This document shows positions 20,487 through 60,249 of a stretch of DNA of 64,000 nucleotides, piece after piece (the stretch's first letter is position 1; each line of letters starts with the position of its first letter). A model generated the notes under the pieces. The model worked only from the letters and a program-made list of their open reading frames with translations. It searched no databases and was not told the origin of the DNA. The stretch is taken from positions 3,528,501 through 3,592,500 of the forward strand of contig NZ_JADBDT010000001.1 of the NCBI RefSeq assembly GCF_014873485.1. Direction: 5' to 3'. Position numbers and translations under genes: made by a program. This stretch comes from Sphingopyxis sp. OAS728. Its GTDB lineage: Bacteria; Pseudomonadota; Alphaproteobacteria; Sphingomonadales; Sphingomonadaceae.

Positions 20487-21521
20487 ATGCGCGTCGACGC
20501 CTTCGATTTCGATTTACCCAATGAGCGTATCGCGCTCCGCCCCGCGCGCCCGCGCGATGCGGCGCGGATGCTCGTCGTCGACGGCGGTGCGATCGTCGAT
20601 GCGGGGGTTGGCGACCTGCCCACGTGGCTGCGCCCCGGCGACTGCCTCGTCTTCAACGACACGCGCGTCATCCCGGCGCAGCTCGAAGGGCAGCGCGGCG
20701 ACGCAAAGATCGGCGCTACCCTGCACAAGCGCATCGACCTGCGCCGTTGGCAGGCGTTCGTCCGCAACGCCAAGCGGCTGCGTGTTGGCGAGAGCGTCGA
20801 TTTCGGCGCCGGCGTCGAGGCGATCGCCGAGGAGCGGCTCGCCGACGGCAGCTTCATTCTCGCCTTCGCGGGGGACGAACCGGTCGAGATCCTGCTCGAA
20901 CGCGCAGGCACGATGCCGCTGCCACCCTATATCGCGGGCAAGCGCCCCACCGACGAAGACGATCGCAGCGATTACCAGACGATGTTCGCGCGCGAGGACG
21001 GCGCTGTCGCGGCGCCAACCGCGGCGCTGCATTTCACGCCGAAGCTGCTCGAAGCGCTAGCGGCTGCGGGTGTCGGCTCCGAAACGCTGACGCTGCACGT
21101 CGGCGCCGGTACCTTCCTGCCGGTAAAAGCCGACGACACCGAAGATCATGTCATGCATGCCGAATGGGGGCGGATCGACGCCGAGACGGCTGCACGGCTC
21201 AACGCCGTGCGCGCGGCGGGCGGCCGTGTGATCGCGGTCGGCACCACCAGCCTCCGCCTGCTCGAAAGCGCGGCGCAGGACGACGGCATTATCGCGCCCT
21301 TCGCGGGCGACACCGCGATCTTCATCACCCCCGGCTACCGCTTCAAGGCGATCGATGGGCTGATGACCAATTTCCACCTGCCGCGTTCGACGCTGTTCAT
21401 GCTGGTCAGCGCGCTGATGGGGCTGGAGACGATGCAGGCGGCCTATGCCCATGCCATCGAGCACGCATATCGCTTCTACAGCTATGGCGATGCGAGCCTG
21501 TTGCTGCCTGGCGCGAAATGA
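20487..21521 (+). CDS. queA: S-adenosylmethionine:tRNA ribosyltransferase-isomerase
   Basis: 344 residues, normal length. QueA adds the epoxycyclopentane moiety to preQ1 in tRNA during queuosine synthesis. Blocks seen: [34 protein letters not shown]-type [34 protein letters not shown] and [21 protein letters not shown]. The tgt gene, often next to queA, is 10.5 kb downstream here. Confidence 0.97.
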
Positions 21522-22202
21522 GCCGCGTTCCCGGTTAAGTTTTGTTTCATTGTCGCTGCCGATAACCGGACGAATCGTGCGTCGTTCGTGCGAATCCAGG
21601 CAATGAAAAACTACCGACAGTGCCGCCGGGCAGGCGGCTGCACGACCGAATCGCGGCTTTACGAGCATGTCGTGTGCGCGGCAGATCGAGCGCACGGTGC
21701 AATATAAACATATGTTATAAAACGGCTTTTCGTTGGGCTTTTAGAGTCTTTTTGAACGCTAATGACTCGTCTTGCCACTGTTCGATTTCGATACAGCTTG
21801 GCCAAATCGGGCGTTTCGGGTCGCGCGCTCCGGACCGGACCGGGCGCGCGGCGCCGCCAGCGGGGAAGGCGCGCCGCCATCCGATCCATAGGGCGCTAAG
21901 CTTCTAGAATATGAGGTTTTCCTGCGATTCGTTTTCAATTTCGGTTGGATAAATTAACTTTCAATTTAGTCGTCGCCGTCGCCGTCGGCATCCAAAATTC
22001 CGGATTTTCCACGCATCGTTAATGTTTTAACCAATCATAAACGGTTGCGCTTCCCGTCCTGTCGTTTAATTAGTTGTTAACCGCAGGGGGGAAGTCGCAG
22101 ACTGGAAAAGTCTCTCTCGGCGGTTGGGGAAGCGAAAAAGGGCGCCGTCGCCGGCGCCCTTCGCTTCAGATGACGACCAGTCTGTATGAGGGGAATTTTA
22201 CC
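21522..22202. other. Gene-poor AT-rich region leading the pilus locus
   Basis: About 680 bp without a convincing gene. Several patches are markedly AT-rich for this genome (21700-21730, 21900-22080), including the 10-bp palindrome AACATATGTT and long runs of TTAA-type sequence. An imperfect repeat pair CCGGTTA/TAACCGG lies near 21535-21575. This is the expected place for the pilin promoter and for transcription factor or H-NS-like binding, but no single promoter stands out. A 95-codon open frame at 21620-21907 lacks coding character. Confidence 0.6.
22130..22166. promoter_or_regulatory. Strong hairpin in the pilin leader
   Basis: A 10-bp perfect stem (22138-22147 with 22152-22161, arms starting AAGGGCGCCG) is extended by AAGCG/CGCTT after a 3-base bulge. 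It lies 37 bp before the first pilin ATG. No T tract follows on the plus strand, while five A residues precede the stem. It therefore looks like an mRNA leader structure or a minus-strand terminator rather than a plus-strand terminator. Confidence 0.55.
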
Positions 22203-22754
22203 ATGAAGAAGCTTTTTGCCTTGGCCGCCATGTCGGCCATGCTCTCGACGCCTGCCTTCGCCGCCGATTCGGACAGCGAATCGTTCGACATCAACGCGAG
22301 CGTTGCTGAAACCTGCACGATGGAAGGCATCAGCGACATCGAACTCGGCACGCTGTCGATCAACACCACCGCCGGCAGCAACGCGCTGTTCCTGAACGGT
22401 GCGTCGGCCGACAACGCCGGTGAGTTCTGGCTGAGCTGCAACGACACCAACCGCATGTCGATCGTTCCTACGCTCGGCAAGCTGAAGAACCAGTCGCGCA
22501 CCCTGCAGTCGGGCGACGACGCCGGCTTCAAGGACACGATCAACTATTCGGTCGCTGCCCTGAACTATCGCAACGGTTTCCTGCAGCCGTCGTACAACAG
22601 CCTGCTTGGCCCGCTGCTCCAGAACCAGAGCCGCGGTGCGATCCATCGCAAGATCGACATGGGCGCTGCTGTGACCCTGCTCGGCAACCTCGACGCCCGC
22701 CCGCTGGCTGGTGTCTACAAGGACACCGTGACGGTCACCGTCACGACCATCTGA
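22203..22754 (+). CDS. Pilin-like secreted subunit 1 of a chaperone-usher locus
   Basis: 183 residues with a signal peptide ending AFAADS. The mature protein is a predicted beta sandwich with two cysteines (AETCTMEG and WLSCNDT) likely to form a disulfide. Its C-terminal strand pattern AGVYKDTVTVTVTTI is shared in outline by the other subunits here. It resembles spore-coat-U/archaic fimbrial subunits by layout. It is about 68 percent identical (124 of 183 by hand alignment, no gaps) to the next gene. A GAGGGG ribosome site precedes the ATG, and a terminator-like hairpin follows. Major or structural pilin is an inference. Confidence 0.78.
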   Translation: MKKLFALAAMSAMLSTPAFAADSDSESFDINASVAETCTMEGISDIELGTLSINTTAGSNALFLNGASADNAGEFWLSCNDTNRMSIVPTLGKLKNQSRTLQSGDDAGFKDTINYSVAALNYRNGFLQPSYNSLLGPLLQNQSRGAIHRKIDMGAAVTLLGNLDARPLAGVYKDTVTVTVTTI

Positions 22755-22765
22755 TCCTGATCGCG

Positions 22766-22800
22766 GGGGAGGGGCGTCGCTCCTCCCCTGTTTGTCTTTC
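22766..22800 (+). terminator. Terminator-like hairpin after pilin 1
   Basis: GGGGAGGGG (22766-22774) pairs with CTCCTCCCC (22780-22788) using one G-U pair, followed by TGTTTGTCTTTC. It probably causes partial termination before pilin 2. Confidence 0.6.
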
Positions 22801-22849
22801 GGGTCGCCATGTTCGAATATGATGCGGCCCCTCAACGGGGAATAGCTCC

Positions 22850-23401
22850 ATGAAGAAACTTCTTATCGTCTCGCTCGGCGCGATGCTCGCCTCGACCCCC
22901 GCCTTCGCAGCGGATTCGGACAGCGAAGCGTTCGACATCAACGCCAGCGTCGCAGAAACCTGCACGATGGAAGGCATCAGCGATGTCGACCTTGGCACGC
23001 TGTCGATCAACACGACCGCCGGTTCGGGCGCGCTGCTGATCAACAACACGTCGGCTGACGAAACCAGCCCGTTCTGGGTCAGCTGCAACGAAAGCAACCG
23101 CATGCTGATCGACGCCGACCTTGGCGTCCTGAAGAACCAGACGCGCACCCTCGCTTCGGGTGATGACTCGGGCTTCAAGGACACGATCAACTATTCGGTC
23201 TATGCCCTGAACTATCGCAACAGCGGTGCCGGTCCCGAGCATAACTCGGCACAGGGCTCTGTCGGCCAGAACACGACCCGCGGCGCGATCCATCGCCAGG
23301 TCGAACTGCGCGCACGCGTTCGCGCCAACGAAAACCAGGATGCCCGCCCGCTGGCCGGTGTCTATGAGGACACCGTCACGGTCACCGTGACGACGATCTG
23401 A
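22850..23401 (+). CDS. Pilin-like secreted subunit 2 (paralogue of subunit 1)
   Basis: 183 residues, the same length as the upstream paralogue and about two thirds identical. Conservation is near total in residues 21-45, in LGTLSINTTAGS, GFKDTINYSV and the last 25 residues. The most divergent part is the middle-to-late region after ALNYRN. Signal peptide and both cysteines are conserved. The pair looks like a tandem duplication that has diverged at exposed loops. It has its own start signals and is followed by a second terminator-like hairpin. Confidence 0.78.
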   Translation: MKKLLIVSLGAMLASTPAFAADSDSEAFDINASVAETCTMEGISDVDLGTLSINTTAGSGALLINNTSADETSPFWVSCNESNRMLIDADLGVLKNQTRTLASGDDSGFKDTINYSVYALNYRNSGAGPEHNSAQGSVGQNTTRGAIHRQVELRARVRANENQDARPLAGVYEDTVTVTVTTI

Positions 23402-23428
23402 TCGGCTTCGTTAATCAGATGGAAAAAA

Positions 23429-23453
23429 GGGGGGGCTAAGGCTCCCCCTTTCA
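23429..23453 (+). terminator. Terminator or attenuator between pilin 2 and chaperone
   Basis: AAGGGGGGGC and GCTCCCCCTT pair around a TAAG loop with one G-U pair, followed by TT and a mixed tail. It could lower transcription of chaperone and usher relative to the pilins. Confidence 0.65.
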
Positions 23454-23498
23454 GTCTGTAGCGATGCGATCTTGCAAGAGCGTTTGGGGGAATTGGTC

Positions 23499-24293
23499 TT
23501 GTTCCGGAAATCTTTGATGCTGGCGTTCGCCGCCGCAACCTTGGCCGTGAGCGCCAGTCCCGTCGAGGCCGCCCGCGTTACACCGATGACCGTCGAAATG
23601 ACGCCGACCGGGCGCGGATCGACCGCGCGTATCGAAGTCACCAATTCCGAAGACCGCAATCTGCCGGTCGAACTGCGGATGTATCGCGGCGATGTGAACG
23701 AGGCGGGCGAACTGACGCTCACCCCGGCCGACGAAAAGTTCGTCGTCTTTCCGCCGCAGGTCGTAATCGCGCCGAATGCGCAGCAGGTTTTCCGCATCCA
23801 GTATCTGCCGGGCGAACCGCTCACCAAATCCGAAGTTTATTACGCGGCGGTCACACAGATCCCGGTCGAACTCGATCCGACCATTTCGCGGATCCAGGTC
23901 GTGATGCGGTTTAACGTACTGGTCAATATCGTGCCCGAAGGCACCAAAGCCGAACCGGTCGTGACGGCCGCCAAGGCGCTGGTTCGCGAAACGGTGGTCC
24001 CGCCTGACGAGCGACTCCCGGTCGATCAGCAGAAGCCCAAGACGGTGACCGAACGCGGCGTCGAAGTCCGTATCGAGAATCGTGGCACGCGCTTTTTCGC
24101 TGCCGGACGCACCGGATGGACGATCACCGGCACGCGTGAAGACGGCACCGCGTTTTCGGACACGCGCACGGCGAGCCGGATGAGCGATGCAATCGGCTTT
24201 GGCCTTATTCCGCCCGGGGGGGCTCGCATTTTCTTCGTTCCGGTCGAGGAGCCGCTGCGCGAGGAGGGCGTCAGCATCAAGATCGGAGAATAA
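23499..24293 (+). CDS. Periplasmic pilus chaperone (PapD-like)
   Basis: 264 residues from a TTG start; a G-rich ribosome site (TTTGGGGGA) lies about seven bases upstream, and this start gives a clean signal peptide (FRKSLMLAFAAATLAVSASPVEA). An upstream TTG at 23472 would spoil it. The mature protein has two immunoglobulin-like domains: an N-terminal one with RIEVTNSEDRNLPVELRMYRG and FVVFPPQVVIAPNAQQVFRIQY (donor-strand region), and a C-terminal one from about residue 150. PapD-family chaperones hold pilins in the periplasm and pass them to the usher. It is co-directional with the usher 37 bp downstream. Confidence 0.88.
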   Translation: MFRKSLMLAFAAATLAVSASPVEAARVTPMTVEMTPTGRGSTARIEVTNSEDRNLPVELRMYRGDVNEAGELTLTPADEKFVVFPPQVVIAPNAQQVFRIQYLPGEPLTKSEVYYAAVTQIPVELDPTISRIQVVMRFNVLVNIVPEGTKAEPVVTAAKALVRETVVPPDERLPVDQQKPKTVTERGVEVRIENRGTRFFAAGRTGWTITGTREDGTAFSDTRTASRMSDAIGFGLIPPGGARIFFVPVEEPLREEGVSIKIGE

Positions 24294-24330
24294 CGAAGGC
24301 GACGCGGGGCATTCAGGGGGGTGGTTTAAG

Positions 24331-26805
24331 TTGATACGCTATTGTTCAAGCATCACATTGGCGTTGATGGCGCTTCAGTCGCCCTATGCCTATGCCGCGA
24401 TGCAGGACCAAGGGCCGCCGGTGCCGCCCGCCGCCACGCCGCCGCCGGCTGCAAAGACGCAGCGCTGGACCCAGTTGCAACTGCCGCTAGTACGCAACGG
24501 CCAGCTCAGCGGCGATATCATCGCCGAAGTGACGCCTGACGGTCTGGTCCGCTTTGAACGCGCATCGTTGATGGAGCGTCTATTACCCTATCTTTCGCCG
24601 TCGGCGCGCGAAACCTTTGGCGCATCCTTTGCGCAAGCGACTTTCGTTACGCCCGAAGAGCTTGATGCGGCCGGCATTGTCCTCCGCTATAACCCCGCCT
24701 TGCTTGAAGTTTCGATCGAACGGATCGATCCCAATCTCGCAGCCGTGCAAACGCTCGGCCCAGTCATCACCGAAAGCCGCGTACCGGTCACGCGGCAGCC
24801 CGAAGATTTCAGCGCCTATCTGAACGTCGTCGGCGATTTTCGTCTCGAAGATTTCGAAACGTTCGAGGATCCGGGCATACTGGTTTTCGGTGCCGCCCGT
24901 TTTCGCGGTGTGGTCGTCGAATTCGACGGCGGTTACGACCGGTCGATAACCGGCGGCCAGGGCAGCGGCTTTTATCGCCGCGCAGCCCGCGCGGTATATG
25001 ACGAGGTCGACAAGCTGCGCCGCTGGAGCGCGGGCGACCTTCAATTGTCGGGTATTCCCGTCATGGCGGGGGCACTGATCGGCGGCGTCGCCGTCGAAAA
25101 GGGACGCCGCGTGTTTTCGGGCGCTGGCCCGGTGACCCAATTGGGCAGCCAGCAGATTCTGCTTGATCGGGATTCGACGGTCGAGGTGATGGTCGACGGT
25201 CAACAGGTGCAGACATTGCAGCTGGCCGCCGGACCTTATGACCTTTCGCAACTGACCGCCCAATATGGTGGCCGTAATGCGCAGCTGTTCGTCACCGACG
25301 TGACCGGGCGGCGGCAACTGGCCTCGTTCGACCCCTTTTTCGATCCCGTGGACCTGGGATCTGGCGAAGACGAATATAGCGCCGGCGTCGGTTTTGTAGC
25401 GCGCGCGTTCGAAGCCTCGCCAAAATACGGCGGATTGCCCGCTTTCTCTGGCTTCTATCGCCGCGGCATGACCAACCGGATGTTGCTCGGCGGCGCCTTG
25501 CAGCTCTCGGAAGATGTGCAGGTCGCCGGCGCGGAAGTGATCGTATCGCCTAACAAAATTCCGGGCCGTATCGAGTTTTCCGGTGCCGTCAGCACCGGTG
25601 ACGATTTCGGCTACTCGTTGCGCGGCGCCTACAGCCTGCAGGTCGGAACGGGCATGCAGGGCCGGCAGTTTTCGATCAGCGCCGATTATCGCAGCAAGGG
25701 CTTCCAGACGCTGACCGACGCGATTGCCGGAGACCGGTTCGAAACGCTGAACGTTACCGCCAATTACGCGCAAAGCCTTGGCGAACAGACGACGCTTGTT
25801 GCGGGGGCCAACTGGTTTCACCGGCCGGGCTTTAACAGCTCCCATTCGGTTTATGCCGATGTCATCCATCGCACGGAAAAATTCCGGGTCACGGCGGGCG
25901 TCGAATATGGCAAGGGCCTGAACGAGAATAATTTCGGTGTCCGGCTTGGACTGACGGTGCCGCTTGGCCGCCGCACCCGCGCCGAAGCCAATTACAACAG
26001 CCGCCGCGAGCAGTCGCGCGCCTTCGTGACGCGCAGCTACGAGGATCGCGTCGGGTCCTTCGGTTACGACGTCGGCATCCGCAGGTCGAGGAATGACGCC
26101 ACCGTCGACGCGATCGCCAACTATGTCGGCAATCGTTTCTATGCCCGCGGATCGGTCACGTCGGGCGGCCCGGGCTTCGGCGATATCGATGAGCGGCAGC
26201 AGGCGCGCCTCCAGGTCGGCACCTCGATCGCCTTTGCTGGCGGCGACGTTGGGATCGGTCGTCCGATCAACGACAGCTTCGTCATCGCCAAGCCGCATGA
26301 AAGTGCCGAGCCGGGTCAGGTGGTGCTCGGTCGGTCGATCCAAGACAAACGCTTCGATGCGCAGAGCGGGGCGCTCGGCCCCGCGCTCGGCGGTCGTCTG
26401 CAATCCTATACGAGACAGAATGTGATTTATGACTTGATGGACGGTCCCGTCGGCTATGATATCGGCACGGGTATCGACACCGTCGAACCGCCATATCGCA
26501 GCGGTTACAATATTACCGTGGGCAGCGATGCGAATGTGACGGCCTATGGTGTGCTCAAGATTGAGGGCGCGCCGGCATCGCTGGTCGCCGGGTCGATTTC
26601 GTCGACCGACGACGAAGCCTTCACGAACCAGCCTTTCTTTACCAATTCGGTAGGCCGATTTGCTATTATGGGCCTGCGGCCGGGCAAGACCTATCAGGTG
26701 CGCCTGACCGAACCCGCGGCGATCTATACGATCGAAGTGCCTGCGAAATCCGAGCCACTGTACCAGCTCGGCGAGATTCTCATCACGCCGCCGGCGGCGA
26801 AATGA
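24331..26805 (+). CDS. Outer-membrane usher of a chaperone-usher pilus
   Basis: 824 residues from TTG at 24331, preceded by a G-rich ribosome site and giving the signal peptide IRYCSSITLALMALQSPYAYAA. A longer frame from 24187 would overlap the chaperone and is rejected. An N-terminal usher domain (about 35-150) is followed by a long beta barrel with the plug region, many alternating strands ending in aromatic residues, and a C-terminal beta-sandwich domain (YGVLKIEGAPASLVAGS ... GRFAIMGLRPGKTY). Size fits FimD/PapC/CfaC-type ushers. The class (alternate or archaic) is not certain. Confidence 0.87.
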   Translation: MIRYCSSITLALMALQSPYAYAAMQDQGPPVPPAATPPPAAKTQRWTQLQLPLVRNGQLSGDIIAEVTPDGLVRFERASLMERLLPYLSPSARETFGASFAQATFVTPEELDAAGIVLRYNPALLEVSIERIDPNLAAVQTLGPVITESRVPVTRQPEDFSAYLNVVGDFRLEDFETFEDPGILVFGAARFRGVVVEFDGGYDRSITGGQGSGFYRRAARAVYDEVDKLRRWSAGDLQLSGIPVMAGALIGGVAVEKGRRVFSGAGPVTQLGSQQILLDRDSTVEVMVDGQQVQTLQLAAGPYDLSQLTAQYGGRNAQLFVTDVTGRRQLASFDPFFDPVDLGSGEDEYSAGVGFVARAFEASPKYGGLPAFSGFYRRGMTNRMLLGGALQLSEDVQVAGAEVIVSPNKIPGRIEFSGAVSTGDDFGYSLRGAYSLQVGTGMQGRQFSISADYRSKGFQTLTDAIAGDRFETLNVTANYAQSLGEQTTLVAGANWFHRPGFNSSHSVYADVIHRTEKFRVTAGVEYGKGLNENNFGVRLGLTVPLGRRTRAEANYNSRREQSRAFVTRSYEDRVGSFGYDVGIRRSRNDATVDAIANYVGNRFYARGSVTSGGPGFGDIDERQQARLQVGTSIAFAGGDVGIGRPINDSFVIAKPHESAEPGQVVLGRSIQDKRFDAQSGALGPALGGRLQSYTRQNVIYDLMDGPVGYDIGTGIDTVEPPYRSGYNITVGSDANVTAYGVLKIEGAPASLVAGSISSTDDEAFTNQPFFTNSVGRFAIMGLRPGKTYQVRLTEPAAIYTIEVPAKSEPLYQLGEILITPPAAK

Positions 26806-26819
26806 CAGGAGTGAAGGTG

Positions 26820-27704
26820 ATGCGCGCATATATTGGAACGCCGATTGCGCTGATGCTGGCGACCTTTGCCACTGCCGCGCAGGCGGAATGCGTGCCGAGC
26901 TTTGTAGCAGGCGGCAATTCAGTGACGCTCACGCCTGCAGGAAGCTTCGACGACGGCCGGCTCAACGAGCGTTTCTATGTCCGGCTGCGCAACGACGGTG
27001 ATACCGTGTGCGAACTGCGGCTCGCAGTCGGCCGCGACATTGCAGCATCAGACGCTGATTTCCCGAGCTATGAGCTGTTCGGGCCGAACGGCAGCGTGAC
27101 GGTCAACAGCACCGACGCAGCGCGCACTAGCGAGCGCTCGGCGGTCGATATCGTGATCCCCGTTCGCGGCGAAACCTCGATCCCCTATGACGTTCGCATG
27201 AAACTGGGCTGGGGCTTTGAATCGGGCATTTATGACCAAGCGCTCGAATTCTTCCTGACCGCGCGGACCGGGCAGAGCGAGCTGGCAACGCAGCGTACCC
27301 AGCTCAGCCTGAATATTCCGGCGATCGCGCGCATCCGCTTCGCGGGTGCAGGCAATGCGCGCGGATCAACCAGCGTCGAAATGGGTACCTTGTCGCCGAA
27401 CGGCGTTTCGACGTCGCCCCCCTTCGCCATTCGCGTGCTCAGCACCGCGGGCTATCAGATGGACCTTGAGTCGCAGAATGCAGGCGCGCTGCGCCGGGTC
27501 GACGGCCCGGAGGTCATTCCCTATCGCATGATGGTGTCGGGCCGGCCGATGAACCTCAAGGGCGGCGGTGACCGGATCCAGGTCGCCAGCCACACAGGCT
27601 CGACAGGCAATGTGCATCCGGTGTCGGTGGTGGTCGATCCCGATCCCACGATGCATGCAGGCAATTACCGGGATCGTATCACGGTGACCGTTACGCCGAT
27701 GTAA
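26820..27704 (+). CDS. Two-domain pilus tip or adhesin-like subunit
   Basis: 294 residues. The ATG at 26820 has an AGGAG site eight bases upstream; an alternative ATG at 26802 overlaps the usher stop codon. The signal peptide ends near AQAEC. Residues 25-160 form a first domain with a cysteine pair (AECVPS, TVCELR). The second half ends in a pilin-like C-terminal strand (AGNYRDRITVTVTPM) like the smaller subunits. Two domains and last place in the operon suggest a tip adhesin; the ligand is unknown. Confidence 0.72.
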   Translation: MRAYIGTPIALMLATFATAAQAECVPSFVAGGNSVTLTPAGSFDDGRLNERFYVRLRNDGDTVCELRLAVGRDIAASDADFPSYELFGPNGSVTVNSTDAARTSERSAVDIVIPVRGETSIPYDVRMKLGWGFESGIYDQALEFFLTARTGQSELATQRTQLSLNIPAIARIRFAGAGNARGSTSVEMGTLSPNGVSTSPPFAIRVLSTAGYQMDLESQNAGALRRVDGPEVIPYRMMVSGRPMNLKGGGDRIQVASHTGSTGNVHPVSVVVDPDPTMHAGNYRDRITVTVTPM

Positions 27705-27706
27705 GC

Positions 27707-27744
27707 AAAACGGTCCGCGCCGTCTGGGCGACACGGACCGTTTT
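27707..27744 (+). terminator. Strong terminator at the end of the pilus operon
   Basis: AAAACGGTCCG (27707-27717) and CGGACCGTTTT (27734-27744) form a perfect 11-bp stem ending in a T run. It starts three bases after the tip gene stop codon. Confidence 0.85.
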
Positions 27745-27794
27745 AAAGCTTTGCCGTAGCGCTGACGGTCAAGGCCGGCCGCGCAGGATAAACG

Positions 27795-28214
27795 TCAGAT
27801 GGTGGTGATCGTCAGGTTGATCGCCAGCGGCGTGGTCAGTGCGCTGTAACGGATGCTGATCGGCTTCATGCCAAACTTGGCGCCGGTGCGGTTGGCAACC
27901 TGGCTCCAGCCGTCGTCGCGCAGATAGGTCAATTCGCCCGCATAGTTGAATGCGACCGCTTCGTTCGTTTCGAGCGGGCGATGCGATGCGATGACCTGAA
28001 AGCCTTCCTGCGTGTTGCAGCTTTCGAAGATCGACCCGCTCGCAAAGCCATTGCCTTCGGACGCCATCAGCGTCGACGCGTTGACCTCGCAATATTCGGG
28101 AACCGTCACGCGGACGTCGAAGGAGCTTTTGCCGCTTTCAGCCGCCATCGCCGTGCTGCCGACAAAAGCCATTGAGACAAGGGCCACTGCGCCATAGAGC
28201 CGAACGTTCTGCAT
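27795..28214 (-). CDS. Pilin-like secreted protein on the opposite strand
   Basis: 139 residues. The ATG at 28214 is chosen; a GTG one codon upstream is also possible because of the GAGGG ribosome site. A signal peptide ends near AMAAES, then a beta-rich domain with two cysteines (PEYCEVNA, FESCNTQ) ends in a strand LTTPLAINLTITTI. This is the same outline as the major pilins, but shorter and clearly diverged. It faces the end of the pilus operon and lies downstream of the PilZ-XRE regulator gene on the same strand. Confidence 0.7.
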   Translation of the reverse strand: MQNVRLYGAVALVSMAFVGSTAMAAESGKSSFDVRVTVPEYCEVNASTLMASEGNGFASGSIFESCNTQEGFQVIASHRPLETNEAVAFNYAGELTYLRDDGWSQVANRTGAKFGMKPISIRYSALTTPLAINLTITTI

Positions 28215-28339
28215 CACATTTCACCCTCTTCTGTTGAGGGCTCTCTACGCCACGCGAGTTAAGGAATGTTTGATGGGGCCAGCCAAAACCGCTGGAGTTT
28301 CACTGGCTTCGCGCGATTGTGGGTCGCGCGACAGACGGC

Positions 28340-29020
28340 CTACATCTCGATCGTGAGCTTGACATTGTCCGGGCTGACACCGGCTGCCCTGGCAATTTGC
28401 GCCTTCGCCCTCGCGACCAGGTCGGCCAGGTTTTCGGTTCCTTCGAAGCCGAGGAGTTCGGAGATTTCGACGCCGAGCGCGTCCGACAATGCCTCCATCC
28501 GGCCGGCTTTGGGCCGGGCCTTGTCGAGTTCCCAAGCCGAAATCGAGGGCTCGCTGACGCCCAACCGGACGGCGAGTTGCCCCTGCGTCAATTGCTTTGC
28601 CGTTCGCAGCCGTTGCAAGCGGACGCCAAAGCTTTCCGCACCCGCCGCGGGCTGGTGGTCGTCAAGTGCGGGCGTATCGGGGCCCACGACGCTGCGCAGT
28701 TGCGCCGCGCTGAGCGTCGCGGGCGAGATCGGCATTTCGAACTGGCATCCGGCGAGGTCGCCGCTGGTCCAGATCACCCTGGTCGCGGTTTTGCCGCTGT
28801 GCGGCAGGTTGACCTCGATGACTTCGCCAATCTCGAGGGGCGCCTTGCTTTCGACGAGCATGCCCGTGGCCGAAATATTGTGGACCAGTGCCTCGATCTC
28901 GGCTCCCGTCGCCTTCGACCCGTGGAGCGGCAGCCGCAACTGGCGACGCGAGGCGCGCCCCTTGCCGGTCGATCGCGGGGTGTCGTTCAAATATACGGTC
29001 ATTGGCATGCGCGCTTCCAT
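28340..29020 (-). CDS. PilZ domain fused to XRE-type helix-turn-helix regulator
   Basis: 226 residues (a shorter start at 29008 with GGAAG spacing is possible). Residues 15-110 are a PilZ domain: a basic RASRRQLRL stretch followed by HNISATGMLVES, the NxSxxG signature of c-di-GMP binding. Residues 130-190 are an XRE/Cro helix-turn-helix: LQRLRTAKQLTQGQLAVRLGVSEPSISAWELDKARP. A short C-terminal helical tail follows. The fusion suggests a transcription factor whose DNA binding responds to c-di-GMP. It lies between the pilus genes and a c-di-GMP enzyme, both likely partners. Confidence 0.85.
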   Translation of the reverse strand: MEARMPMTVYLNDTPRSTGKGRASRRQLRLPLHGSKATGAEIEALVHNISATGMLVESKAPLEIGEVIEVNLPHSGKTATRVIWTSGDLAGCQFEMPISPATLSAAQLRSVVGPDTPALDDHQPAAGAESFGVRLQRLRTAKQLTQGQLAVRLGVSEPSISAWELDKARPKAGRMEALSDALGVEISELLGFEGTENLADLVARAKAQIARAAGVSPDNVKLTIEM

Positions 29021-29086
29021 CGCGAGCGCTATATTAACATTTTGCTTCGCCGGAAGGTTAATAAGACAAAGCGCCCGAAAGTCACG

Positions 29087-29105
29087 AAGGGCGCGAGGCG
29101 CCCTT
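29087..29105. repeat. Hairpin in the divergent PilZ-XRE / GGDEF-EAL promoter region
   Basis: AAGGGCGC and GCGCCCTT form a perfect 8-bp stem with a GAG loop. The arm sequence matches the core of the hairpin before pilin 1 (22138-22161). It might be an operator shared by the locus, or chance in GC-rich DNA. Confidence 0.4.
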
Positions 29106-29230
29106 GCCGGCGGAGCAATCCAACATCCTCAAATGGCACGGTTTCCGGAAAACCCTTAGATATTTACTCTATCGCAATCCCTTCCCGGCATAGCGGGCGG
29201 CATGTGGGGTTCAGGTGAAGAGTTTGTTTG

Positions 29231-31417
29231 ATGGACGGGCCATCGCGGATCGATACCGGCGACCGCGGGGATGACCAAGCCGACGGAGGCCAGCGTGGCT
29301 TTTTCGGTTTGCTCGGCCCGCGTATCACCAAACAGCGTGGTGATACCGCGGCGAACCTGCACACCCACGAAGCGTTGCTGCTGCTCCAGAATTATGAGGA
29401 AAGCGGTCAGGGCTGGTTCTGGTCGACCGATGCCAAAGGCCGGCTAACCTATATCACCGATTCGGTGGCGCGATTGATGGGACGAACGACCGGCCAATTG
29501 CTCGGCACGGCCTTCACCGACCTTTTCCTTCCCGTCGATAGCCACGGCGAACGCCAGCGCACCCTGCCTTTCCTGTTGACCAAACAATCGAAATTCGACG
29601 ATCTGCCGTTGCGCAGCGCGTTCGAGGGCGACGACCGCTGGTGGGCGATATCCGGCCGGCCGCAGTTCGACAGCGCCGACAAGTTCGCCGGCTATCGCGG
29701 CAGCGGGACGGACGTGACCGCACAGCGCCGGTCGGCCGAGGACGCGTCGCGGCTCGCGCTCTATGACTCGCTGACGGGGCTAGCCAACCGTTTCCACATC
29801 TCGAAAAAGCTCGACACGACGCTCGCGACCTTCGCGCAGCAGCAGCGATCATGCGCGATCATGCTGCTCGATCTCGACCGGTTCAAGCAAGTCAACGACA
29901 CGCTGGGCCACCCGGCGGGCGATGCGCTGCTGAAGCAGGTCGCCGAACGCCTGCTGAAAATCGTCGGCGACAAGGAAATGGTCAGCCGATTGGGCGGCGA
30001 CGAATTCCAGATCATCCTCCCCGACATCGAGGACCGCGGCAAACTGGGCGACATGGCGGCCGACATCATCGCCAGCCTGTCGCAGCCCTATTCGGTCGAG
30101 GGCAGCCGCTGCATCATCGGTGCGTCGGTTGGCGTCGCGATCGCACCCTTCGATGGCCTGAGCAGCGATGAGCTTGTCCGCAACGCCGACCTGGCCCTCT
30201 ATGCCGCAAAGGGCAACGGCCGCGGGCGGTTCAGCTTCTATTCGAGCGATCTTCACACCGCGGCCGAAGATCGCCGCGCGCTCGAGGACGATCTGCGCGA
30301 CGCGCTGGTGCGCGGCGAGATGGCGCTGCTTTATCAGCCGGTCGTCAATTCCAAATCGAACATGGTGAGCGGGGTCGAGGCGCTCATTCGCTGGACCCAT
30401 CCAGATCGCGGCGTGATCTCTCCCGCCGTGTTCATTCCGATCGCCGAGGAGGCCGGGCTGATCTGGAAAATCGGTGAATGGGTGCTGCGCACCGCGTGCG
30501 AAGATGCCGCGAGCTGGCCGGGCGACATGCGGGTCGCCGTCAACGTCTCGCCGATCCAGTTCGCGAATGAGGAACTGCCGAAAATTGTCGCGAGGGCACT
30601 CGGCGCGACCGGTCTCGCCCCCGACCGGCTGGAGCTCGAAATCACCGAAAGCGTGTTCATGGGCGATACCGCCGAAACCGCGCAGATGTTCAAGGCTCTG
30701 AAGGAGCTGGGGGTTCGCCTGGCGCTCGACGATTTCGGTACCGGCTATTCCTCGCTCGCCTATCTGCAATCCGCGCCGTTCGACAAGATCAAGATCGACC
30801 AGAGCTTCGTCCGCGATGCGACGATTCCGGGGTCGCGCAATGCCGCGATCATCGCCGCGATCGTCGCGCTCGCCGAGGCGCTCGAGATGGAAACGACCGC
30901 CGAAGGGATCGAATCGCTCGACCAGCTCGAACTCATCCGCAAGCTCAACGTCAGCCACGTCCAGGGCTATGTCTATAGCAAGGGTGTGCCGCAGGCCGAG
31001 CTGCTCGAGCATAGCGAAGGGGCGTGGACGATCAAACCCGCGGGGCCCGCGCGCCAGCGTAACGACCGCTACTCGTTGTTCCGCAAGGTCGGCGCGATCC
31101 ACGACAACCATCGTTATGCGGTGGTGATCCGAAACCTGTCGACCACCGGCGCCTTTATCGAAGGCATATTGGACGTGCCCGTGGGCACGCGCTTCGTTAT
31201 CGATTTCGGCGAAGGCCAGCTTGTCACGGCGACTGTCCGCCGTTCGATGAAGCATCAGCAGGGCATCGAATTCGAACAGACGATGGTCAGCGACGGCAAT
31301 GGCGGGCTGTGCACGCGGCACCGCGTTTCGCCCTATCTGATCGCCGCGGCGACCCAGTCGACCTCCGCGCTGGCGCTGCCCTCGTTCACGACGACGACCG
31401 ACTGGAAGGCCAGCTGA
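29231..31417 (+). CDS. PAS-GGDEF-EAL-PilZ c-di-GMP enzyme
   Basis: 728 residues from the ATG at 29231 (a TTG one codon earlier is possible). Order: a PAS-like sensor (about 50-165, GWFWSTDAKGRLTYITDSVARLMG), a GGDEF cyclase domain with intact RLGGDEFQI, an EAL phosphodiesterase domain with GVEALIRW, EITES, DDFGTGYSS, KIDQSF and AEGIES, and a C-terminal PilZ-like domain with RNDRYSLFR and RNLSTTGAF. The product-inhibition RxxD site before GGDEF is not conserved (KIVGDKE). Both catalytic domains look active, so the net direction of turnover cannot be told from sequence. Confidence 0.92.
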   Translation: MDGPSRIDTGDRGDDQADGGQRGFFGLLGPRITKQRGDTAANLHTHEALLLLQNYEESGQGWFWSTDAKGRLTYITDSVARLMGRTTGQLLGTAFTDLFLPVDSHGERQRTLPFLLTKQSKFDDLPLRSAFEGDDRWWAISGRPQFDSADKFAGYRGSGTDVTAQRRSAEDASRLALYDSLTGLANRFHISKKLDTTLATFAQQQRSCAIMLLDLDRFKQVNDTLGHPAGDALLKQVAERLLKIVGDKEMVSRLGGDEFQIILPDIEDRGKLGDMAADIIASLSQPYSVEGSRCIIGASVGVAIAPFDGLSSDELVRNADLALYAAKGNGRGRFSFYSSDLHTAAEDRRALEDDLRDALVRGEMALLYQPVVNSKSNMVSGVEALIRWTHPDRGVISPAVFIPIAEEAGLIWKIGEWVLRTACEDAASWPGDMRVAVNVSPIQFANEELPKIVARALGATGLAPDRLELEITESVFMGDTAETAQMFKALKELGVRLALDDFGTGYSSLAYLQSAPFDKIKIDQSFVRDATIPGSRNAAIIAAIVALAEALEMETTAEGIESLDQLELIRKLNVSHVQGYVYSKGVPQAELLEHSEGAWTIKPAGPARQRNDRYSLFRKVGAIHDNHRYAVVIRNLSTTGAFIEGILDVPVGTRFVIDFGEGQLVTATVRRSMKHQQGIEFEQTMVSDGNGGLCTRHRVSPYLIAAATQSTSALALPSFTTTTDWKAS

Positions 31418-31421
31418 GGTC

Positions 31422-31446
31422 GGAACCCCGTCGGGGCTGATCCGTT
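31422..31446 (+). promoter_or_regulatory. EcfG-type general stress promoter of the hemerythrin gene
   Basis: GGAAC (31422-31426), exactly 16 bases, then CGTT (31443-31446) matches the consensus GGAAC-N16/17-CGTT of alphaproteobacterial EcfG sigma factors without a mismatch. It lies in the 60-bp gap between the c-di-GMP enzyme gene and the hemerythrin ATG at 31478. Confidence 0.75.
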
Positions 31447-31477
31447 CTGTCTTCGACCGCCACGGACGGAGACGAAT

Positions 31478-31966
31478 ATGACCGAGACCAAAATCTTTGC
31501 GCGGCTGAAGGCCGATCATGATCGGCACCGCGAGCTTCTTGACCGCATCGATGAAACGCAGGGCGACAGCGACGAGCGTCGCTACCTGTTCGAGGCATTT
31601 CGCGTCGAGGTGACTGCGCACGCCGCGTCGGAGGAAATGTCGCTCTACGCGACGATGCTCGCGAACCCCGATTTGCGCGACGAGGCGCAGCACAGCGTCG
31701 CCGAGCACAAGGAAATTGAGGATTATCTGACCGAACTGTACGAGATGGACTTTTCCTCGACCGGCTGGCTCACGCGTTTCCGCACGATGAAGGAACGCTA
31801 TCTCCACCATATCGACGAAGAAGAGGAAGAGATGTTCCCGCAGGCCGAAAAGGGGCTGTCGGACGCCAAGAAGCGCGAGCTGATCAAGATATTCGAAAAG
31901 GAAAAGCCGAAGGAAAAGGCGAAGGCTGCCGAGGAAGAACCGTCGAGCGAGCACGCGAAAGCCTGA
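31478..31966 (+). CDS. Hemerythrin (HHE) domain protein
   Basis: 162 residues, cytoplasmic. A four-helix HHE cation-binding domain covers residues 1-130 with candidate iron ligands His14, His17, His48 and Glu52 (TAHAASEE), the His pair in QHSVAEHKEIEDYL and YLHHIDEEEEEMFP. A Lys/Glu-rich tail of about 30 residues follows. Such proteins are often linked to oxygen, peroxide or NO stress. A perfect EcfG-type promoter and a GGAG ribosome site precede it, so it probably belongs to the general stress regulon. Confidence 0.88.
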   Translation: MTETKIFARLKADHDRHRELLDRIDETQGDSDERRYLFEAFRVEVTAHAASEEMSLYATMLANPDLRDEAQHSVAEHKEIEDYLTELYEMDFSSTGWLTRFRTMKERYLHHIDEEEEEMFPQAEKGLSDAKKRELIKIFEKEKPKEKAKAAEEEPSSEHAKA

Positions 31967-32013
31967 TCGCCCGCCCTCGACTTTTGGCGCCTGCGCCGCC
32001 ATAGGCGCGCGCC

Positions 32014-33138
32014 ATGACCGACAGATTCGCCTTTTCGATTGCCGCGACCGACGGCGCCGCGCGCACGGGCGTGATCCGGATGCAGCGCGGCGAGATCCGC
32101 ACCCCGGCCTTCATGCCGGTCGGTACCGCTGCGACGGTGAAGGCGATGCGCCCGGCCGAAGTGCGCGCCACAGGCGCCGACATCATCCTCGGCAACACCT
32201 ATCACCTGATGCTGCGCCCGACCGCCGAGCGCATGGCGCGGCTCGGCGGCCTTCACAAATTCATGGGTTGGGACCGGCCGATCCTGACCGACAGCGGCGG
32301 TTATCAGGTGATGAGCCTGTCGGCGCTGACCAAGCAGAGCGAAGAGGGCGTCGCGTTCCAGAGCCACCTCGACGGCTCGCGCCATATGCTGACCCCCGAA
32401 CGCTCGATGGAAATCCAGCGGCTGCTCGGCAGCGACATCGTGATGGCGTTCGACGAATGCCCGCCGAACGGCGTCGATGCCAAGCGCGCCGAGGCGAGCA
32501 TGGAACGTTCGATGCGCTGGGCGGCACGCAGCCGCGCGGGCTTCGATTCCGGCGAGGAGCATGCGGCACGCTCGGCGCTGTTCGGTATCCAGCAGGGTTC
32601 GCTCGACGAGAAGCTCCGCGCGCGATCGGCGGCGGCGCTGACCGACATCGGCTTCGACGGCTATGCGATCGGCGGCCTTGCGGTAGGTGAGGGGCAGGAA
32701 GCGATGTTCGGGGTGCTCGACTATGCACCCGCGCAGCTCCCCGCCGACAAGCCGCGTTACCTGATGGGGGTCGGCAAGCCTGACGACCTGGTCGGCGCGG
32801 TCGCGCGCGGGGTCGACATGTTCGATTGCGTTTTGCCGACGCGCTCGGGGCGCAACGGGCAGGCCTTCACCCGGGGCGGCCCCCTCAATATTCGCAACGC
32901 AAAGTTCGCCGAAGATCAGGCGCCGCTCGACGCCGATTGTCATTGCCCGGTGTGCACGACCTGGTCGCGCGCCTATCTGCATCATCTCGTCCGCTCGAAC
33001 GAAATGCTCGGCGCGATGCTGATGACGCAGCATAATCTGCATTTTTATCAGGATTTGATGCAGGGGATGCGCGACGCGATCAGCGCCGGGACGTTTGCCG
33101 CGTTTCAGCGTGATTTCGAGGCGCGCTACAAGCGCTGA
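32014..33138 (+). CDS. tgt: Queuine tRNA-ribosyltransferase (tRNA-guanine transglycosylase)
   Basis: 374 residues, full length. Tgt swaps guanine 34 for preQ1 in GUN-anticodon tRNAs. Seen: the nucleophile region [23 protein letters not shown] with the substrate-binding Asp, [19 protein letters not shown] and the zinc site CHCPVCTTW followed by H. It works directly before QueA, whose gene lies 10.5 kb upstream on the same strand. The 3' end almost touches the convergent nepR gene. Confidence 0.97.
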
Positions 33139-60101: not shown

Positions 60102-60249
60102 GCGGATGTCCCCTCGTTGGCAGTGGATCACCCAGGCGCGCGGCTCATGACGGCCTGCCGGCCAGCCCCGCTTCCCGATGGGATCCCATCTTCAGCGCCA
60201 GTCGCGGAGCGCGCCCAGTCTAGTCTCCCGGTGCGATGAGGGGAAGGCG

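Follow-up and report, generated by a model that had tools for sequence, protein, structure and literature searches.

We analyzed a 64,000-nucleotide stretch of the Sphingopyxis sp. OAS728 genome (NZ_JADBDT010000001.1, positions 3,528,501–3,592,500, forward strand; hereafter the window), in which queA and tgt lie on the same strand, separated by a chaperone-usher pilus cassette and by genes for a PilZ-XRE protein, a PAS-GGDEF-EAL-PilZ enzyme and a hemerythrin-domain protein (Table 1). Across the genus, cassettes that are unlike one another at the DNA level occupy this one site, with sharp borders in conserved flanks; sister species carry different cassettes, one cassette type does not follow the tree of the flanking genes, and PilZ-XRE genes are coupled to ushers. 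These observations bear on how a surface organelle may come under the control of cyclic di-GMP (c-di-GMP) and of the cell-cycle regulator CtrA.

Gene content of the queA-tgt interval

Open reading frame and domain scans bore out the gene content and coordinates that the original prediction, made from the sequence of the window, had listed between queA and tgt. The gene that it called an opposite-strand pilin does lie on the reverse strand and does encode a small secreted subunit-like protein, although Pfam offers no match for it. The leader upstream of the pilin genes has a GC content of 54%, compared with 64.4% for the window.

In the chaperone-usher pathway, pilins are exported, bound by a chaperone and polymerized by an usher. 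Both paralogous pilins score above the PF05229 (SCPU) cut-off, identifying them as secreted subunits, and the chaperone matches PF00345 with 33.2 bits against a cut-off of 23, identifying it as PapD-like; the SCPU-like C-terminus of the tip-like subunit, at 20.4 bits, falls just below its cut-off of 22.4. The window usher matched nothing in Pfam or NCBIfam. Its predicted structure (mean predicted local distance difference test score 76.5, predicted template modeling score 0.65) retrieved FimD and PapC ushers as the 18 best Protein Data Bank matches (E 2e-34 to 3e-15), and the modeled protein has the outer-membrane usher fold. A plasmid relative of this usher reaches 26.9 bits (E 2.8e-6) against the Pfam Usher family PF00577, just under the cut-off of 27.1. 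Sequence searches of the Protein Data Bank gave no credible match for the chaperone or the pilin, and the usher profile retrieved a single, weak match, the F1 capsule usher. The OAS728 genome also contains a second chaperone-usher locus (L088, C1:4006000–4020000), with guaA-like and TonB-receptor genes as neighbors (read from translations) and the nearest PilZ-XRE gene 454 kb away.

Table 1. Genes and sequence features between queA and tgt in the window.
Feature	Position	Strand	Remarks
queA	20487..21521	+	left core flank
AT-rich leader/promoter region of pilin genes	21522..22202	+	short blocks conserved among type-a genomes
AACATATGTT palindrome inside conserved leader block	21707..21716	no strand	exact in 3/4 aligned leaders
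ACTGTTCGATTTCGATACA, conserved 19-nt block with TTCGAT direct repeat	21777..21795	no strand	
CtrA-type full box TTAA-N7-TTAAC	22066..22081	+	137 bp before pilin ATG
Predicted 5' leader RNA structure with two hairpin regions	22077..22167	+	structure prediction
Pilin A, SCPU domain, signal-peptide-like start	22203..22754	+	PF05229 E 1.5e-5
Pilin B, paralogue of pilin A (66% identical)	22850..23401	+	PF05229 E 1.1e-11
Periplasmic chaperone, exact start uncertain	23472..24293	+	PF00345 E 5.6e-8
Outer-membrane usher, start uncertain	24262..26805	+	FimD/PapC fold (predicted structure)
Tip-like subunit	26802..27704	+	SCPU-like C-terminus, sub-threshold
Small secreted subunit-like protein, cassette partner	27795..28217	-	no Pfam match
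PilZ-XRE protein, alpha class, in right flank	28340..29020	-	domain match and class tree
PAS-GGDEF-EAL-PilZ enzyme, resident gene, divergent from PilZ-XRE	29228..31417	+	
Hemerythrin-domain protein, resident gene	31478..31966	+	
tgt	32014..33138	+	right core flank

The interval is a variable slot in Sphingopyxis

We surveyed 60 Sphingopyxis genomes and located queA in 59 and tgt in 59; 43 genomes had usher-like genes at E 1e-3, a large part of which were weak matches or lay away from queA-tgt. Intervals were fetched from 54 relatives in addition to the window, and 52 of these, with both genes on one piece, were retained after exclusion of two that lack a full tgt (L086 and L087); in one interval (L082) queA and tgt lie on opposite strands. 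Outside this set are two genomes with the genes on different contigs (G003, G012), two with the genes far apart (G001, G040) and one without queA (G058).

The distance between queA and tgt ranges from 89 bp to 13.5 kb among the 52 relatives, and the content of the interval varies with it: a GGDEF-EAL gene is present in 44, a hemerythrin gene in 43, a PilZ-XRE gene in 25 and an usher gene in 19. The two flanking genes had been described as often adjacent; nearly adjacent they can be, 89 bp apart, in one of the 52 relatives. The expectation that the pilus block is not common to all relatives was borne out across the genus, where the block is variable: with the window counted, 20 of 53 intervals keep a pilus, and the window's own version of the usher (at least 86% identical) occurs in 5 of 80 Sphingopyxis genomes. 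Other cargo at the site includes an RHS-repeat protein with FecI-/FecR-like genes (read from translations), TonB receptors, an AMP-binding/acyltransferase protein, a CoA-transferase, a TipAS-type MerR regulator and Sel1 proteins.

Of the 19 usher-bearing intervals, 17 have the GGDEF-EAL gene, as do 27 of the 33 that lack an usher, and both it and the hemerythrin gene occur more often without a pilus than with one. Because they are frequent in usher-free intervals too, we regard these two genes as part of the core of the locus. The resident enzymes retain an intact GGDEF motif in 45 of 45 cases and an intact EAL motif in 44 of 45; in the window enzyme the C-terminal PilZ domain scores 19.1 bits against a cut-off of 22.5, with its motif present. 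The window had been proposed to hold a single inserted island with its own c-di-GMP module, and this proposal is rejected, since the GGDEF-EAL and hemerythrin genes are resident and the window's class of PilZ-XRE protein is common to genomes whose pilus genes are unmatched at the DNA level. The adjacency of the GGDEF-EAL gene, offered as an argument for c-di-GMP control of attachment, is for the same reasons weak evidence: the gene is resident in most pilus-free intervals, and the neighboring PilZ-XRE class is shared by DNA-unlike cassettes. One type-a cassette (L036, in G039; types are defined below) lies in an interval that has PilZ-XRE and hemerythrin genes and no GGDEF-EAL gene.

Distinct cassette lineages occupy the same site

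Ushers at queA-tgt fall into five lineages, a (the window type), b, c, d and e, and representatives of b–e are 26–42% identical to the window usher, with the gene order pilin, chaperone, usher, tip common to the lineages at this site. For lineages a, b, c and d, some of the nearest relatives are ushers encoded elsewhere on a chromosome or in another genus, and the starred branches of the usher tree, a quick tree with some long branches from which direction is not inferable, force at least five changes between this site and elsewhere. The small subunit gene keeps its position behind the tip gene; type d has it on the operon strand, whereas in types a and c it is on the opposite one.

Different cassettes are carried by G028 (type d) and G029 (type b), which are sisters in the tree of queA and tgt with support 100/100. 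Their flanks are 93–95% identical, and the 5.8–6.5 kb between the flanks is unmatched except for one 157-bp block at 85%. Identity drops to 0.82–0.84 at both borders, the left of which lies ~1.3 kb beyond queA. Such border divergence is clear in this pair, confined to the right border in G030/G050 and weak between the window and G027 (type d). In the latter pair, DNA homology ends ~11 bp before the queA stop codon and resumes 14 bp past the PilZ-XRE stop codon; the sequence between these points is unmatched except for a 66-bp stretch within the usher genes and a cross-match of PilZ-XRE paralogues. Furthermore, the queA and tgt data reject type d as one clade (approximately unbiased (AU) test, p 6.6e-5).

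We found no integrase among the nine genes scanned in the interval, no tRNA in the window and no direct or inverted repeat of at least 9 bp shared by the window's two borders. A cassette of type d is present on Lpl, a conjugative plasmid of Novosphingobium strain PP1Y; the usher of this cassette shares 74% identity with the chromosomal usher of G027. A second plasmid, pLA5, encodes an usher 41% identical to that of the window; because they carry related ushers, plasmids are a possible outside source. These results make it likely that cassettes have been exchanged at queA-tgt within the genus, presumably through recombination within the flanking sequence.

PilZ-XRE genes are coupled to ushers

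The association between PilZ-XRE and usher genes was counted over the 60 genomes from 101 PilZ-XRE matches of at least 135 bits, compiled manually among the matches listed (weaker hits, for the most part partial, were excluded), and from 47 usher rows of at least 200 bits, including one C-terminal fragment (G018) kept as an usher. Within 10 kb of an usher lie 39 of the 101 PilZ-XRE genes, against ~0.55 expected at random on a flat 4.3 Mb genome, and 37 of the 48 best-scoring ones; conversely, 29 of the 47 ushers have a PilZ-XRE gene within 3.3 kb. Because the genomes are related and not independent, probabilities for this association are indicative only. The coupling is also seen at sites other than queA, there without the resident GGDEF-EAL gene, and in other genera (149 genomes searched for each gene) three of the five genomes that have both genes at the thresholds used carry them within ~3 kb of each other. 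At queA-tgt itself, all 19 usher-bearing intervals have a PilZ-XRE gene, compared with 6 of the 33 that lack an usher (Fisher 2e-9, kinship ignored).

A quick tree separates these proteins into classes that differ in position. The alpha class lies beside the GGDEF-EAL gene and comprises 17 rows (4 with type a, 9 with type d and 4 pilus-free), whereas the beta class (9 rows, support 80; types b, c and e, one d and two pilus-free) and the gamma class (9 rows, exclusively type d; looser relatives lie next to d-type cassettes at other sites) follow queA and are upstream of, and divergent from, the pilins. Since alpha is common to DNA-unlike cassettes, it remains part of the flank, and gamma accompanies type d.

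Both c-di-GMP-binding motifs of PilZ domains (RxxxR and [DN]xSxxG) are found in 44 of 47 PilZ-XRE proteins by a loose pattern, and 14 of the 16 sequences aligned keep RxxxR in position. We regard c-di-GMP as the probable ligand of the PilZ-XRE proteins, and their linkage to ushers tips the balance slightly toward a role as regulators of the pilus. The database relatives of the window PilZ-XRE protein number 355, of which 120 were listed; among the matches listed, every named source organism is Sphingopyxis. Further PilZ-XRE paralogues, a pair ~3 kb apart, are clustered with genes for an acyltransferase and an EpsH exosortase, both in the OAS728 genome (L127, C1:889000–907000) and in G008 (L128). 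At five loci of other genera (L115, L117, L118, L120 and L123), PilZ-XRE adjoins a gene matching the GGDEF query, with no usher.

A CtrA-type box precedes the pilin genes

Leaders of type a retain short conserved blocks, and much of their remaining sequence has diverged. One of these blocks contains TTAATTAGTTGTTAAC at 22066, an exact match to TTAA-N7-TTAAC, which according to PMC7200025 is the CtrA consensus obtained by chromatin immunoprecipitation sequencing in Hyphomonas and very similar in other species. The exact box occurs once in the 64-kb window, where 0.01 copies are expected. We scored leaders as matches out of nine relative to pilin starts set by hand (L094 and L125 were excluded). 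Type a has a 9/9 box in four of four leaders at −134 to −137. In type d, an 8/9 box lies at −119/−120 in 9 of 11 leaders, the other two having 7/9, and two relatives of type d at other sites reach 9/9 and 8/9 at −118. In type e a 9/9 box lies at −219, and the a-like cassette that G040 carries elsewhere has 8/9 at −100. One of 20 other usher loci scored reached 8/9; resampled leaders reach 9/9 in at most 0.3% and 8/9 in about 1–4% of cases, uncorrected.

The OAS728 genome holds six exact sites in all. One of them is 138 bp before ctrA (NF045991, 415 bits, cut-off 350), and another (L145, C1:436378) is 100 bp before a BapA-prefix tandem-repeat adhesin gene. In Sphingomonas, CtrA is reported to govern motility, EPS synthesis and c-di-GMP signaling (PMC8921679, citing work on S. 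melonis). We lean toward CtrA control of the pilin promoter in OAS728 through the box at 22066, a reading suggested by the match and its position; for types a and d such control is plausible, but it would not be general.

The predicted leader RNA downstream of the box has 3 of 37 pairs changed on both sides (5 sequences). Type-d leaders also contain a predicted structured 5' RNA between the CtrA-type box and the pilin start, likewise with 3 pairs changed on both sides. No known riboswitch was found in the pilin leader at Rfam gathering thresholds; elsewhere in the window, a ZMP/ZTP riboswitch on the reverse strand (60123–60215) scores above its Rfam gathering score. Neither of two other leader elements looks like a general PilZ-XRE operator: the palindrome AACATATGTT was found in type-a leaders only, and TTCGATTTCGAT, also seen in these leaders, occurs in addition within the queA gene at many loci and at two loci elsewhere.

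A proposed docking slot for pilus cassettes

We consider it probable that the queA-tgt interval is a slot at which whole chaperone-usher cassettes are exchanged and the PilZ-XRE, GGDEF-EAL-PilZ and hemerythrin genes mostly stay, with control of the pilus by c-di-GMP and CtrA inferred. In this model, a cassette would be swapped by homologous recombination in the flanks, with plasmid relatives as one outside source, and its exported, chaperoned pilins would be polymerized by the usher into a surface attachment pilus whose exposed subunits change with the cassette. CtrA would drive the docked pilin promoter where a box is present, the GGDEF-EAL-PilZ enzyme would tune the level of c-di-GMP, and the PilZ-XRE protein would bind c-di-GMP and adjust transcription at or near the docked cassette. 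The coupling of PilZ-XRE to ushers, together with the CtrA-type site, is better evidence for control than the adjacency of the GGDEF-EAL gene, yet it is indirect. A broader proposal, which we advance only tentatively, is that PilZ-XRE proteins form a group of one-component transcription regulators, gated by c-di-GMP and specific to chaperone-usher pili, that the slot is a docking site at which a fixed c-di-GMP platform assumes control of any pilus operon that arrives, and that CtrA boxes acquired at the docked promoter tie the pilus to the cell-cycle phosphorelay.

Several observations weigh against this model, and they are given here with the alternatives that they bear on. The strongest alternative is that TTAA-N7-TTAAC is a chance or generic promoter motif and no CtrA site. 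The exact box shows no genome-wide enrichment (8 rows, six sites, versus 12 rows for the reversed control), types b (2 leaders) and c (3 leaders) have no box above 7/9, and the plasmid pilin has no upstream CtrA-like box with up to one mismatch. Against this alternative stand the rarity of the box in the window, its fixed distance from the pilin start, conserved while much of the surrounding leader diverged, and the placement of two of the six genome sites before ctrA and the BapA-type adhesin gene. We take a chance motif to be a real possibility, if not the favored one.

A second alternative holds that the PilZ-XRE protein regulates just the neighboring GGDEF-EAL gene and lies near ushers for unrelated reasons. 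The two genes are divergent in the window with 207 bp between them, six intervals have a PilZ-XRE gene and no pilus, four pilus-free intervals keep the alpha class, and at 5 of 10 usher-free loci of other genera PilZ-XRE adjoins a match to the GGDEF query. As for c-di-GMP as ligand, the plasmid helix-turn-helix protein has K in place of N/D in NxSxxG and a PilZ match below the cut-off, and its RxxxR word lies upstream, seen once the N-terminus is included. That the GGDEF-EAL gene is the sole target is nonetheless unlikely, given the sites elsewhere at which PilZ-XRE adjoins ushers in the absence of the resident gene and the position of the beta and gamma classes upstream of the pilins.

A third alternative is that the ancestor of the genus already had one pilus operon, which then diverged at this site and was lost many times, with no exchange. 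Site and gene order are the same across lineages, 20 of 53 intervals keep the pilus, and types a (p 0.16) and c (p 0.11) are not rejected as single clades of the flank tree in the AU test; the starred branches force just one change for type a, and the clade tests use a tree built from the flanks (queA and tgt) themselves. Because the AU test does not reject type a as a clade, exchange is not proven for the window's own type. Against an old locus without exchange, which we consider quite unlikely, stand the separate usher lineages of sister species whose flanks are 93–95% identical, the rejection of type d as one clade and the existence, for each of lineages a–d, of relatives located at other sites or in other genera.

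Finally, an integrative element that added pilus and regulators together in one insertion at the queA 3' end would fit the homology break just before the queA stop codon in the window/G027 comparison and the duplicated queA 3' ends of G006 and G014, which point to other routes of insertion, but it is very unlikely given the lack of an integrase, tRNA or shared border word of the kinds sought above, the occurrence of the GGDEF-EAL and hemerythrin genes without a pilus, the several usher lineages and the G028/G029 border well beyond queA. In G006 and G014 (L040 and L045), the queA 3' end is duplicated beyond an insert of ~2 kb, ~2 kb after queA, and the G006 insert encodes a DUF559/MTES_1575 nuclease-like protein.

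Relation to known systems

The slot offers a natural experiment in which an adhesive surface organelle changes and the neighboring regulators stay, and it opens to testing the question of how second-messenger and cell-cycle control already in place is extended to a newly gained surface structure; the PilZ-XRE family would supply candidate c-di-GMP-responsive transcription factors.

The pilus genes resemble the SCPU-type chaperone-usher pili, an archaic group that includes CupE and Csu, in having SCPU subunits, a PapD-like chaperone, an usher fold and a tip-like gene. The window usher differs in being too diverged for a Pfam or NCBIfam match. Our literature search, with most subscription journals outside it, found no Sphingopyxis chaperone-usher locus and no description of PilZ-XRE fusion regulators; nor did a literature search find a chaperone-usher pilus as a CtrA target. 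The TTAA-N7-TTAAC consensus and an encoded CtrA are shared with the alphaproteobacterial CtrA regulon as presented in PMC7200025 and PMC8921679.

The PilZ-XRE protein has the RxxxR and [DN]xSxxG motifs of PilZ c-di-GMP receptors and differs from them in its fusion to a Cro/XRE helix-turn-helix and its linkage to pilus loci. The helix-turn-helix of Streptomyces BldD is likewise of the XRE type, and a c-di-GMP tetramer mediates BldD dimerization; to our knowledge, BldD has no PilZ domain. BldD is, according to PMC4151990, a transcription factor under c-di-GMP control, a likeness to the role suggested here for PilZ-XRE.

The closest parallel to the slot is the replacement flexible genomic island, for which Lopez-Perez et al. 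2014 (PMC4033161) proposes exchange by homologous recombination and gives as examples the O-chain, exo-/capsular polysaccharide, flagellum glycosylation, giant proteins and the S-layer. As in those islands, different, DNA-unlike clusters for one exposed structure occupy one site, with no clear mobility hallmarks and with substitutions rising at the borders. Unlike them, the slot is not filled in all strains: 33 of 52 intervals have no pilus, some holding other cargo, and the variable unit is an entire chaperone-usher pilus, missing from many intervals and neighboring conserved genes for putative c-di-GMP regulators. The kind of island is known; its combination with coupled PilZ-XRE regulators looks new.

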